A stretch of 64,000 nucleotides of DNA, taken from positions 152,242 to 216,241 of the forward strand of contig NZ_LT629967.1 of assembly GCF_900104665.1 (NCBI RefSeq), read 5' to 3'. Shown here piece by piece: positions 59,685 to 63,842 of the stretch (its first letter is position 1; each line of letters opens with the position of its first letter). The stretch comes from Traorella massiliensis (GTDB taxonomy: Bacteria; Bacillota_I; Bacilli_A; Erysipelotrichales; Erysipelotrichaceae). The notes under the pieces are model-generated. The model did no database searches. It was not told the origin of the DNA and worked only from the letters and a program-made list of their open reading frames with translations. The translations under genes were made by a program, and so were the position numbers.

Positions 59685-60809
59685 CTAGATATCATCAAAT
59701 TGTCTTAACCATTTTGAAAAGGTTTTTAATCCTTTTTGAAAGATTATTGGATCGATACCTCCGCCAAGACGAAGATGATATTCACAATCAAAGCAGCTTC
59801 CAGGAACAAAGAAGATTCCTTCTTCTTTCTGGACACGCAAAGATAACTCTTCACTTGGTATTTTCATATCATAGCGAATCAACTGCGTCGTTCCTGAGGT
59901 AAACGTATTTGTAATATGTTTTTCTTCTTTGATCCATTCTTTGAGAAAAGCTCTGTTTTTCATACAAATATCATAATTTCTAGACAGTACCTTTTCTTTT
60001 TGTTTCAAAACCTCAACTGCTAAAAGATCATTCATTTTAGGAATTGAAATGATATGATAATCACGGCGGTTAATGATCCTATCGATAAAATCTTTAGGAC
60101 CTATGATCCATCCTAATCTTAGAGCCGGTAATCCATAAGCCTTACTTAAACCAGAAGTAATGATCGCTTTATCATATAAACCATAAAAACTTCCCTGATA
60201 ACAAAAATCATCAACACAAAGCCCTCGATAAACTTCATCTACAAATAAATATAAATCATATTTTTCAGCTAATTCAACTAATTGTACGGCCTGTTCACCA
60301 CTTAACATCGTTCCTGTCGGATTATTAGGCAAAGTTACACAGATCGCTTTTGTTTTTTCTGTGATGACTCTTTCTAATTCATCAAAATCCATCTGCCATC
60401 CTTTATCTTCATACAGCTTTAATTCAATGATGTTAGCCCCTAAACTTTCTGCAAGTGAAGATATCTGTTGATATCCAGGTGTAAATGTGATGATTTCATC
60501 ATTAGGTTCAATCAGTTCCATGATGGCCATTTCATTGGCATTGATAGCTCCTTGAGCAATAGCAATATTACATGGTTCCACAGTATCATATAACTGACAG
60601 ATCTGCTTTTTCAATTCATCACTGCCATTAATATCTCCATAGTCAAGTTTCATATCCAAAAAAGTATCTAAATACTTTTCTTTAATATTCAAAAGATCTA
60701 ATAATTCACCCATTTTTAAAGGTGATACACAAGATTCTGTCAGATTATAGAGGCCCTCATTTTCATGCTCATTCATCCATATTTCTACTTTAAATGGGCG
60801 AATTTTCAT
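59685..60809 (-). CDS. Fold-type I PLP aminotransferase of the ABC operon
   Basis: A 374-residue PLP enzyme. Visible are the AQGAINANEMAIMELI block, LPNNPTGTML with the PLP-contact Asn, VDEVYRGL (Asp) and the Schiff-base lysine in SGLSKAYGLPALRLGW; the start [16 protein letters not shown] is typical of a branch common in clostridia. The substrate is not known. Its ATG shares a base with the ABC ATPase stop (TAATG), so it is the last gene of the T-box-controlled operon and probably acts on the imported amino acid; arginine or a relative is suggested by the leader. Confidence 0.92.
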   Translation of the reverse strand: MKIRPFKVEIWMNEHENEGLYNLTESCVSPLKMGELLDLLNIKEKYLDTFLDMKLDYGDINGSDELKKQICQLYDTVEPCNIAIAQGAINANEMAIMELIEPNDEIITFTPGYQQISSLAESLGANIIELKLYEDKGWQMDFDELERVITEKTKAICVTLPNNPTGTMLSGEQAVQLVELAEKYDLYLFVDEVYRGLCVDDFCYQGSFYGLYDKAIITSGLSKAYGLPALRLGWIIGPKDFIDRIINRRDYHIISIPKMNDLLAVEVLKQKEKVLSRNYDICMKNRAFLKEWIKEEKHITNTFTSGTTQLIRYDMKIPSEELSLRVQKEEGIFFVPGSCFDCEYHLRLGGGIDPIIFQKGLKTFSKWLRQFDDI

Positions 60810-61537
60810 TAGTAAAGTACCTTTCTTAAGAAATCCTGAGCACGTTTCGTCTGTGGCTGTGAAAAGAACAAGTCTGGGGTATTTTCCTCAATGATCTTAC
60901 CATCTTCTAAAAAAACAATACGATTTGCAATTTCCTTCGCAAAACCCATTTCATGTGTAACTACCACCATCGTCATCCCCTCACCAGCCAGCTGTTTCAT
61001 GACCTCTAAGACTTCCATGACCATTTCCGGATCAAGAGCACTTGTAGGTTCATCAAAAAGCATGATTTGAGGATTCATCATCAATGAACGGGCAATCGCT
61101 GCACGCTGCTTCTGTCCTCCGGATAATTTTTTTGGATATGCATCTTCTTTATCTGCTAAGCCAACACGCTGTAAAAGCTCTTTTGCTTTTGCGATAGCTT
61201 CTTCTTTGCTCATATGCAATGTCTTCATAGGAGCAAGAATCATATTATCCATCACATTCATATGTGGAAAAAGATTAAAGTGCTGGAAAACAAATCCTGT
61301 TTTGGAGCGAGCCTCTTTAGCCTGCATTTCATCTCTATAATCAACAAGCTTTCCTTCTATATAAATATTGCCTGACTCAGGAATTTCTAATCCGTTGATA
61401 CACCGGCATAACGTACTTTTTCCTGATCCGCTAGGTCCAATCAGACAAACGATTTCTCCCTTGCGAATTTGAAAGGATACATCATCTAATGCCTTTACAT
61501 TTTGAAATGTTTTTGAAATGTGTTCTGTCTTAATCAC
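60809..61537 (-). CDS. Polar amino acid ABC transporter, ATP-binding protein
   Basis: About 242 residues of the GlnQ/ArtP type. Walker [14 protein letters not shown]-loop [10 protein letters not shown], signature [15 protein letters not shown], Walker [15 protein letters not shown] and the switch His in VVTHEMGF are all intact. It energises the permease that precedes it. I choose the GTG at 61537, where GTG overlaps the permease stop within GTGATTAA, behind AAAGGAG; the longer frame to 61570 lies inside the permease. Specificity is set by the binding protein. Confidence 0.95.
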
Positions 61538-62231
61538 TTTCTGCCAGTCTCCTTTCAACTTTTTTCGCAATTGATGAAATCACAAATGTCATAACTAAAT
61601 AGAAAACACCCGCCATCATTAAAGGAAAAAGATAATTATAGTAATTAGCTCCCATGATCTGTGCACTGTAAAGCAGCTCTACTGCTCCGATCGTAGAAAG
61701 CAAAGAAGAATCTTTGATCAGGGTGATATACTCAGAAACCATCGGAGGTACTACTTGTTTAAAAGCCTGCGGTAAAATAACATAGCGCATCATATCCCAA
61801 TGTGAGAGGTTTAATGACATGGACGCTTCCCACTGTCCTGCATCAATTCCAATAATTCCTGAACGTATCAATTCTGTTGAATAAGCTCCTGAATTAATAC
61901 CAATCGCAATCGTACCTACAACAAATTTATTGACACGAAAAGCGTTTCCTGTAATCAAAGTAATAAGTGTTGGCATGATCAGATAGAAAAATAAAATCTG
62001 AAGCAGCATTGGTGTTCCTCTTATCAGTTCTACATAGCAGTTTCCTAAAAAGCGAAGAAATTTATTCTTATTCAATTTAAGGGAAGCCCCAATAATTCCT
62101 AAGACGATTCCCATCAACCATGCAATTGAAGCTACGATCAATGAATAAACTGCCCCAATCAACAGTGTCTTATAATTTTCGGGATTACTGGCAATTTCCA
62201 GACACTTTCCAAAGTATTCCTGTATATCCAT
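61530..62231 (-). CDS. Polar amino acid ABC transporter, permease
   Basis: A 233-residue inner-membrane protein of the HisM/GlnP group with five to six helices. The start region [17 protein letters not shown] is the first helix, [18 protein letters not shown] the usual family block, and the coupling loop reads [22 protein letters not shown] (EAA loop ending in VILPQA). It forms a homodimeric pore since only one permease gene is present. It follows the binding-protein gene by 26 bases and overlaps the ATPase gene. Confidence 0.94.
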
Positions 62232-62257: not shown

Positions 62258-63010
62258 TTACATCCCCCATTTTGTTTTTAATTCTTCATATGCATCACTG
62301 TCTTTAAATTGTGCAATCGCATCATTTAAAGCTTCCATCAATAGTTCATTGCTTGTTGAACAAATGATACCATTTTCTTCATCAATCAATGGCTCTTCCA
62401 GAACAACCAATGATGAATCACTCGCTTCATAATTCTGAGCTACCAAAATATCAATGACAACTGCATCCATCTGGCCTGCCTTTAATGCTTCAACTAAAAT
62501 ATTCGCATCCTGATTCAATTCTACTGTCGCTCCTTCAATTTCTGCGGCTGCATCTGCCCCTGTTGTTCCTAACTGAGCTCCTACCACTTTGCCATTTAAA
62601 TCTGCCGCTGATTCAATACCTGAATCATTTTTTGTTAAAATGACCTGAGCAGATTCTAAATAAGGATCTGAAAACAATACCTGTCTTTCTGGATCATAGG
62701 TAAAACCAGAAACACCCACATCTACCTGACCCAGATTCACTGCATCAACAATCGTAGAAAAAGTCATCTGTTCGAATTCAACTTCAACACCTAAATATTT
62801 TTCTAATTCTGCCATCATATCAACATCAAAGCCAACCATTTCTCCGTTTTCCAAACTTTCATAAGGCGGATAATCCGGTGAGATACCTACAATAAGTTTA
62901 TTTTCTTCAATCAGCTGATCTTCCCAAGTAGTTTCTTCTTGTGTATTTGAACACGCACTACATCCTAATACCATTGCTGCTACAGCAGCTATTTTAAACA
63001 TTTTTTTCAT
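62258..63010 (-). CDS. Amino acid ABC transporter substrate-binding lipoprotein
   Basis: A 250-residue lipoprotein: signal peptide KKMFKIAAVAAMVLGC with the likely lipidated Cys17, then the type II binding fold GISPDYPPYESLENGEMVGFD in parts (PPYESL, VGFDVDMM), VGVSGFTYDPERQ (ligand Arg) and GAQLGTTGAD. The PPYES and VGFDVD blocks resemble basic amino acid binders (Lys/Arg/ornithine), but glutamine binders are close. It is anchored outside the membrane and feeds the permease. Its ATG overlaps the stop of an upstream leader ORF (ATGA) and it has its own AGAGGT site. Confidence 0.92.
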   Translation of the reverse strand: MKKMFKIAAVAAMVLGCSACSNTQEETTWEDQLIEENKLIVGISPDYPPYESLENGEMVGFDVDMMAELEKYLGVEVEFEQMTFSTIVDAVNLGQVDVGVSGFTYDPERQVLFSDPYLESAQVILTKNDSGIESAADLNGKVVGAQLGTTGADAAAEIEGATVELNQDANILVEALKAGQMDAVVIDILVAQNYEASDSSLVVLEEPLIDEENGIICSTSNELLMEALNDAIAQFKDSDAYEELKTKWGM

Positions 63011-63090
63011 TTTTCTTTACCTCTTTCTTTCCTTTCATAAAATAATATATTTTCTACAGTCAACAAAAAATATCGTCGTCGTTTCCTCAT
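63007..63090 (-). CDS. Arginine-rich leader peptide
   Basis: A 27-codon ORF behind a perfect GGAGG six bases before its ATG. It begins MRKRRRYFLL, with AGG AAA CGA CGA CGA as codons 2-6, and has six arginine codons in all. It lies between the T-box terminator and the transporter genes, and its TGA overlaps the binding-protein ATG (ATGA). The position, ribosome site and codon run fit a regulatory leader peptide whose translation rate reports charged arginine tRNA. No homology claim is made. Confidence 0.72.
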   Translation of the reverse strand: MRKRRRYFLLTVENILFYERKERGKEK

Positions 63091-63100
63091 AATTACCTCC

Positions 63101-63324
63101 TAAAATAAAAAAGCGTCTTCATTATGAAGACGCTTATAGCGCGGTGCCACCTCATTTGCCGACAAATTGGTCGACCTCTCAACTCTTAATGCGAGTACAC
63201 AGTTGCCTTACTTTCATACAGCAACATCTCCAAAGCTCGTTTCATTTCCTTCCAGTATCAGTTTTCACCAGCCACTGACTCTCTATAACTTTCCAAAAAC
63301 TACTACTCTTTTTCATCGATGTTG
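63101..63324 (-). promoter_or_regulatory. T-box riboswitch controlling the amino acid ABC operon
   Basis: The conserved T-box GAGGTGGCACCGCG lies at 63153-63140, followed by a terminator stem AAGCGTCTTC/GAAGACGCTT (63111-63135) and a run of T. Stem I closes with CAACATC (63324-63318) and GATGTTG (63228-63222), contains an AGTA on its 5' side and GAA on its 3' side. The specifier, just after GAA at 63243-63241, reads ACGAG: CGA (Arg) if one base separates it from GAA, ACG (Thr) if none. Uncharged tRNA binding would allow read-through into the transporter genes. Confidence 0.93.
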
Positions 63325-63329
63325 ACAAC

Positions 63330-63358
63330 ATATTAATCGAATAAAAACCAATTGTCAA
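63330..63358 (-). promoter_or_regulatory. Sigma-A promoter of the T-box operon
   Basis: TTGACA (63358-63353) and TAATAT (63335-63330) with exactly 17 bases between, placing the transcript start at about 63323, at the base of T-box stem I. Confidence 0.9.
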
Positions 63359-63421: not shown

Positions 63422-63444
63422 AATAAAAGCACTCTTTCAAGTGC
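63422..63444 (-). terminator. Terminator after the DUF1622 gene
   Basis: AGCACT / AGTGCT stem with a six-base loop, then TTTTATTA on the reverse strand, directly after the stop codon. Confidence 0.8.
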
Positions 63445-63842
63445 TAATATTCAATATCGGTTATATCTTGATTATGTTCTTTTTCATTTTTTACTTCATA
63501 ATGAATCAAAACTGAAAGAAGAGCTCTAAGAACGATAATCGCCCCTAAAATCATGATTTCATCAATTGTACGAATCGTCACAGTTTTTAAAATTTCCGCT
63601 CCCATCTTAAACTCCAAACCTAATGCCAATGAGTTTCCTAGAGAAAGTTTGATAGGATAATGCACATGTTTCAAAATACTTCGTCCATACATATAAAATG
63701 ATTTTATCGAACCTACGATGATGACTATAATCCCCATCAATTCAATGATTCCTGTAATTTCAGGCACGATAATCTGTACGATGTGCTCAAAGAAAGCAAC
63801 ACTTTCCTGACTCGTTTCAGCTAATAATAGCAAGCTTATCAT
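63444..63842 (-). CDS. DUF1622 membrane protein
   Basis: A 132-residue protein with three hydrophobic segments (IIELMGIIVIIVGSI, IKLSLGNSLALGLEF and IMILGAIIVLRALLSVL) and the family block LSLGNSLALGLEFKMGAEILKT, split here over the second segment. Members are small integral membrane proteins without an established function. Its start overlaps the prs stop by four bases (ATGA), so it is co-translated with prs. A terminator follows. Confidence 0.9.
   Translation of the reverse strand: MISLLLLAETSQESVAFFEHIVQIIVPEITGIIELMGIIVIIVGSIKSFYMYGRSILKHVHYPIKLSLGNSLALGLEFKMGAEILKTVTIRTIDEIMILGAIIVLRALLSVLIHYEVKNEKEHNQDITDIEY

Follow-up and report, generated by a model that had tools for sequence, protein, structure and literature searches.

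Arginine T-boxes followed by a translated arginine-codon leader at transporter and argG operons of Erysipelotrichales

Why would a gene that already lies behind an arginine T-box be preceded by a second element rich in arginine codons? A locus of Traorella massiliensis raises this question. It lies in the window analysed here, a stretch of 64,000 nucleotides. On the minus strand, a promoter, a T-box, a terminator, the Shine-Dalgarno (SD) sequence AGGAGG, a 27-codon open reading frame (ORF) and a gene for a binding protein follow one another in this order. The initial annotation had described a T-box with a CGA specifier, a perfect SD sequence, a 27-codon ORF with CGA CGA CGA, and an ATGA overlap with the gene. 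All of these elements are present on the minus strand, and the leader ORF is a real feature of the locus.

The predicted promoter (63330-63358, minus strand) consists of TTGACA at 63358-63353, a 17-nt spacer and TAATAT at 63335-63330. It scored 10/12 in a consensus scan, as a match to the consensus only, and the location of this sigma-70-like element fits the 5' end of the T-box. A gene for a DUF1622 membrane protein (63444-63842) lies 5' of the promoter on the same strand. The T-box (63123-63325, minus strand) matches the covariance model RF00230 over its full length (1-219); it scores 132.1 bits where the gathering cut-off is 93, with an E value of 4e-29. The specifier codon CGA (63237-63239, minus strand) occupies positions 91-93 of the Rfam alignment, one base 5' of the CUUU/AAAG base stem. 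The T-box core GGUGGCACCGCG (63140-63151, minus strand) carries the UGGC that is complementary to the GCCA end of tRNA-Arg. An intrinsic terminator with its U tract (63102-63135, minus strand) is built from an 11-pair stem (63135-63111) and a run of T.

The arginine specifier, likewise proposed at the outset, is supported by the Rfam alignment. In the same register, and with the base of stem I paired by eye, the T-boxes that precede trpS and cysS in this genome correctly display UGG and UGC. In a rough pattern count, nearly all related T-boxes before transporter genes and before argG (argininosuccinate synthase) also carry a CGN specifier, which is CGA, CGC or CGU. All three codons are decoded by tRNA-Arg(ICG), CGA through a weak inosine-adenine pair. 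The genome encodes this tRNA as tRNA-Arg(ACG), and its G-CCA end complements the UGGC of the T-box. A second T-box of the genome (L034, C7:654194-654406, minus strand) reads GAA-A-CGC-A and is probably also specific for arginine. It precedes a 226-residue protein of beta-lactamase-like appearance and has no leader ORF.

Behind the terminator, AGGAGG (63096-63101, minus strand), read from the sequence, precedes an ORF (63007-63090, minus strand) that starts with the ATG at 63090. The 27 codons encode MRKRRRYFLLTVENILFYERKERGKEK, opening with MRKRRRYFLL. Codons 4-6 are CGA CGA CGA (63073-63081, minus strand), the proposed stall site, and lie 71 nt from the start of the binding-protein gene. The run is kept in the closest relative (L002) and appears as CGA CGA in L003. 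The SD sequence of the binding-protein gene, AGAGGT (63019-63024, minus strand), is contained in the end of the leader ORF, and the leader stop overlaps the gene's ATG at 63010 as ATGA.

The downstream genes form an apparent operon on the minus strand. The first (62258-63010) encodes an ABC substrate-binding lipoprotein of the SBP_bac_3 family (Pfam PF00497, 1.7e-33). Its best NCBIfam match, below the cut-off, is the lysine/arginine/ornithine-binding subfamily, and ArtJ is among its PDB relatives. It is followed by an amino-acid ABC permease (61530-62231; PF00528 and TIGR01726, above cut-off) and an ABC ATPase of the GlnQ/ArtP type (60809-61570), for which the true start may lie downstream of the listed TTG. 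The final gene (59685-60809) encodes an enzyme of the PLP aminotransferase fold (NCBIfam PRK07324, 5e-112, and GntC, 2e-74, both below cut-off). The nearest named families, GntC and VioD, again below the cut-off, are cyclases of arginine derivatives, and the enzyme may act on imported arginine. No match to argG was found in the T. massiliensis genome, and arginine import is therefore probably essential for this bacterium.

Orthologues of the binding protein were gathered across the order Erysipelotrichales, and many of them lie behind an arginine T-box. When T-boxes were searched for tandem CGN codons downstream, the layout also came to light before argG, and a separate survey of argG recovered leaders in the same two families of the order. 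The gap was measured from the U-run of the terminator to the gene; long-gap loci have at least 70 nt and short-gap loci fewer than 38 nt. Among the 63 arginine T-box loci with a long gap, transporter and argG loci taken together, 60 contain a short ORF with early CGN codons, 30 before binding-protein genes and 30 before argG. An SD-preceded ORF with tandem CGN-CGN in its first 12 codons is found at 50 of the 63, compared with a mean of 0.25 and a maximum of 1 in 100 shuffles of the spacers; the loci share ancestry and the counts are not independent trials, yet two families and two unrelated genes are represented. Ten further loci have a single CGN, separated arginine codons or a weak SD sequence (L010, L018, L029, L051, L074, L081, L116, L138, L294 and L296), and the leader is absent from three (L066, L073 and L279). 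Tandem Trp, His, Leu, Lys or AGR codons are near chance at the long-gap loci. When the start codon was picked blind to arginine, tandem CGN fell in frame at 58 loci and out of frame at 2 (58:0:2); at the latter two, a different start codon is the correct one. Since the bias is one of frame, selection acts at the level of translation. The arginine codons of the leader ORF are thus shown, by comparison of sequences, to be under selection, and the initial proposal of two successive devices addressed to arginyl-tRNA gains a genuine leader ORF as its second element. Each strand of the 2.6 Mb genome contains 93 copies of the sequence CGNCGNCG.

The leaders differ widely outside their first codons. 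Those of transporter operons include MRKRRRRLVQ (L002), MTTDRRC (L003), MESDRRY (L030, Holdemanella), MSKEDRRRC (L115, Faecalicoccus) and, each complete up to its stop codon, MRMSLRR (L017, Massilimicrobiota) and MKQLSSHKFQKRR (L004, Dielma). Those of argG include MQEERRRRC, MFENVRRC and, likewise complete to the stop, MKVRRRELSFDS (Sharpea) and MRRLGRYDS (Longibaculum). Only the SD sequence, the start codon and the early arginine codons are kept across the set while the remainder diverges, and an SD-like element lies at the same place in most relatives. With L002, whose binding protein is 93% identical, the DNA agrees through AGGAGG and ATG AGR AAA CGA CGA CGA and then drifts; in its C-terminal part, the leader of L001 has diverged freely from that of L002. 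The leaders strongly prefer CGA, which accounts for 100 of the 164 arginine codons counted in leader starts, versus 97 of 748 in the long ORFs of the window. The initial annotation had proposed to test whether specifier and leader codons co-vary. No codon-by-codon relation is seen, as the leaders use CGA or CGG irrespective of whether the specifier is CGA, CGC or CGU. Leaders of the Coprobacillaceae type before transporter genes (L010, L017, L029, L074, L081, L109 and L138) end on arginine, as Leu-Arg(-Arg)-stop. They use TTA CGG or TTG CGG, and their stop codon precedes the gene by 55-70 nt. Leaders of the other family are instead of the DRR or VRR type.

The position of the leader stop is not conserved. 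It lies anywhere between -138 and +128, counted from the gene start, and some leaders have none and are fused in frame to the gene. In about 60% of the leaders the stop falls within 38 nt of the gene or past its start, and in the other 40% or so it is farther upstream. The ATGA overlap and the coupled translation that the initial annotation regarded as the key feature do not hold up in this comparison; even in L002 the frame at the gene start differs and the overlap is lost. At six loci (L050, L086, L189, L196, L224 and L251), leader and binding protein share one open frame with no stop codon between them, and such loci could yield a lipoprotein with an arginine-rich N-terminal extension. The distance that is kept is that from the arginine codons to the gene, with the first CGN codon at least 52 nt 5' of the gene in 60 of 60 leaders.

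Among the T-boxes checked, the leader is restricted to arginine T-boxes with a long gap. The other 15 T-boxes of the T. massiliensis genome lead straight into their genes with no such leader. In two relatives, 4 of 30 T-boxes are specific for arginine, before the transporter and argG, and these have a gap of more than 100 nt and a leader; the remaining 26 lack a leader, and their gaps measure 12 to 60 nt. In total, 41 non-arginine or other T-boxes were checked and none is followed by such an ORF. The alignment of orthologous leaders proposed initially thus bears out the ORF with its early arginine codons where the gap is long enough, and not at the 51 orthologous arginine T-box loci with a short gap, where the leader ORF is lacking. 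Given these 51 loci and L034, the leader is dispensable as judged from its distribution. Beyond the order, one pattern search covered about 340 genomes of the class and another a similar number; the matches, of which a part was inspected, were mostly synthetase genes read out of frame, and those that were read were synthetase frames. A BLAST search of the leader against plasmids gave no match. All confirmed leaders belong to two families of Erysipelotrichales, and the trait looks lineage-specific in this sample and variable inside the lineage.

These features probably constitute an arginine-specific two-stage tRNA gauge, in which antitermination at the T-box is followed by a leader peptide that senses the same tRNA-Arg(ICG). 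Transcription antitermination by a tRNA is the standard behaviour of the T-box family. By this family knowledge, uncharged tRNA-Arg(ICG) would bind to the CGA specifier and the T-box, termination would be avoided, and the transporter operon would be transcribed. A ribosome would then load at the AGGAGG of the read-through transcript and reach CGA CGA CGA among its first codons, where decoding would depend on the charged share of the tRNA that pairs with the specifier as well. If charged tRNA is scarce, the ribosome would pause 71 nt 5' of the binding-protein start and leave the gene's SD sequence free. If it is plentiful, the ribosome would cross AGAGGT, end at ATGA, and compete with or replace fresh initiation, a course that would fit the interference model of the at operon of Bacillus subtilis. 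By analogy with that operon, the second stage would add induction under arginine starvation. We infer that the tRNA is sensed by pausing, and it is above all the direction and the physical route of the downstream effect that are put forward here conditionally.

Several observations bear on how the second stage might work. The footprint of a stalled ribosome extends about 12-15 nt beyond the A site; with at least 52 nt between the first CGN codon and the gene, such a ribosome cannot reach the gene's ribosome site. Arginine occurs at codons 2-3 in some argG leaders (L265, L268 and L269), and so early a position points to sensing of charged tRNA at the level of the codon and argues against a nascent-chain arrest peptide. 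An arrest peptide responding to free arginine was accordingly judged unlikely, as the residues flanking the arginines are not conserved either. Because the stop varies from far upstream to beyond the gene start or is lost, no single geometry of steric relief fits all leaders, and completed translation could interfere in most of them, though not in every one. Our preferred reading is that the second stage would strengthen induction under starvation because the gene start stays clear; protection of the mRNA by the stalled ribosome is the main rival.

The surveyed loci also admit a broader reading that we hold tentatively. It takes the two operons as parts of an order-wide arginine regulon, in which each long-gap T-box is joined to a translated arginine leader, and in which the stall would neither uncover nor block an SD sequence but would act otherwise, for instance by shielding the mRNA after processing or by governing the traffic of ribosomes. 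If this were true, the second tRNA-reading layer would be different in kind from that of the at operon. An effect on mRNA stability as such seems unlikely, and it agrees with part of the pattern. A ribosome paused just behind the T-box terminator would shield the transcript from 5'-to-3' decay after processing, and starvation would lengthen the life of the operon mRNA. Stalled ribosomes are known to shield transcripts from decay at ermC-type leaders. The SD sequence, start codon and early stall codons are kept directly past the terminator while the stop position and the downstream structure vary, in line with this reading, and the gene start appears to be accessible without any switch.

Classical translation attenuation, in which a pause at the arginine codons would refold the leader RNA and uncover a sequestered SD sequence of the gene, is improbable. 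A strong hairpin with the arginine codons in its loop is present in several leaders of Erysipelotrichaceae (L030, L102, L105, L115, L121 and L163), as such a mechanism would lead one to expect. However, the hairpin pairs the leader's own start, not that of the gene, with sequence past the arginine codons, and the pairing exceeds that of shuffled sequences in 10 of 30 transporter leaders but only 4 of 30 argG leaders. The predicted energy for opening the gene start in T. massiliensis is 2.27 kcal/mol in the free RNA versus 2.43 kcal/mol with a stalled ribosome masked. Predicted folds show no switch that sequesters the SD sequence, with the gene start accessible in both states, and the sequestration model was rejected since the stalled ribosome is without effect on the computed opening energies. 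No terminator was found downstream of the leader codons on the minus strand from 63090 to 63010.

A conserved hairpin as a general part of the leader was rejected as well; it is real in some transporter leaders of Erysipelotrichaceae and would be at most a local elaboration. Three of these leaders (L115, L121 and L163) contain three segments that allow two exclusive pairings: GATGCG at the leader start, GATGCGA just after CGA CGA CGA, and a distal TCGCATC. The predicted pairings suggest a local attenuator-like switch.

Repression under severe starvation, through positive coupling of leader and gene or through a stall that lowers expression as in Staphylococcus aureus rbfL, is very improbable. 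The ATGA overlap at the T. massiliensis locus could support termination-reinitiation, and rbfL is a proven arginine-sensing leader with rare arginine codons (PMC13009471). The overlap is not conserved, however, and occlusion as in rbfL needs a stall beside the gene's ribosome-binding site, which is far from the codons here; such a logic would also run counter to the T-box and deprive the cell of uptake. It is scarcely credible that the ORF is a chance or vestigial one, or the CGA run an RNA motif with no link to translation. Many loci lack the leader, and its C-terminal part is free to diverge, but its excess over shuffled spacers, frame bias, SD-like sites, restriction to arginine T-boxes and recurrence before argG all speak against this reading.

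The two-stage gauge that we favour most closely resembles the B. subtilis at operon (rtpA), in which, according to PMC11255114 and PMC4027176, a tRNA-Trp T-box is combined with a leader peptide on which ribosomes stall in a tRNA-dependent manner (Chen and Yanofsky 2003, 2004). This precedent overturns the initial view that no charged-tRNA leader peptide had been described behind a T-box. In both systems (rtpA/yczA in B. subtilis), the T-box is followed by a short translated ORF with tandem cognate codons before the first gene, and both layers address the same tRNA. The stall site, 71 nt away here and at least 52 nt in all 60 leaders, leaves the gene's ribosome site free, in keeping with an at-type arrangement. 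The systems differ in the amino acid, arginine instead of tryptophan, and in their target, as an arginine-type ABC transporter and argG are controlled directly in place of an anti-TRAP regulator. Moreover, the leader stop is not fixed beside the gene's SD sequence, and the arrangement is spread over two families of Erysipelotrichales. To our knowledge, the layout of a T-box with a cognate leader peptide was previously known only for tryptophan in B. subtilis. A search of the open-access literature, with subscription papers outside its scope, found no arginine T-box combined with a leader peptide, and the arginine version, its two operons and its order-wide spread appear to be undescribed.

Other leader peptides share single features with the present ones. 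In S. aureus rbfL, arginine-responsive pausing of ribosomes at the ribosome-binding site represses a biofilm regulator gene (PMC13009471). Like the leaders described here, rbfL is a short leader peptide with slow arginine codons before a gene; unlike them, it has no T-box, uses AGA/AGG read by tRNA-Arg(UCU), places the pause on the ribosome-binding site and serves a biofilm regulator. Early runs of codons for the regulating amino acid are also typical of the trp, his and leu attenuators of enterobacteria and of the Leu-rich attenuator peptide of S. aureus (PMC5794164). All of these act through a transcription terminator that comes after the leader, whereas here it lies upstream, in the T-box. 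The stall-dependent SD release of ermC-type attenuators finds no counterpart, the gene start being predicted accessible in both states.

Sensing of one tRNA in two layers had rested on a single studied case, the at operon. The layout now recurs for another amino acid. It precedes two unrelated operons of arginine supply, and its hosts are common gut bacteria of many genera. Its natural variants, with a leader, without one, fused in frame, overlapping the gene or ending at a distance, make the contribution of a second gauge to a T-box directly testable. Compared with ordinary T-box operons, these loci have the same specifier, core and terminator, and they add a translated leader of cognate codons before the gene. 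A T-box, a gap of at least 70 nt, an SD sequence and early cognate codons together provide a comparative signature for finding others.
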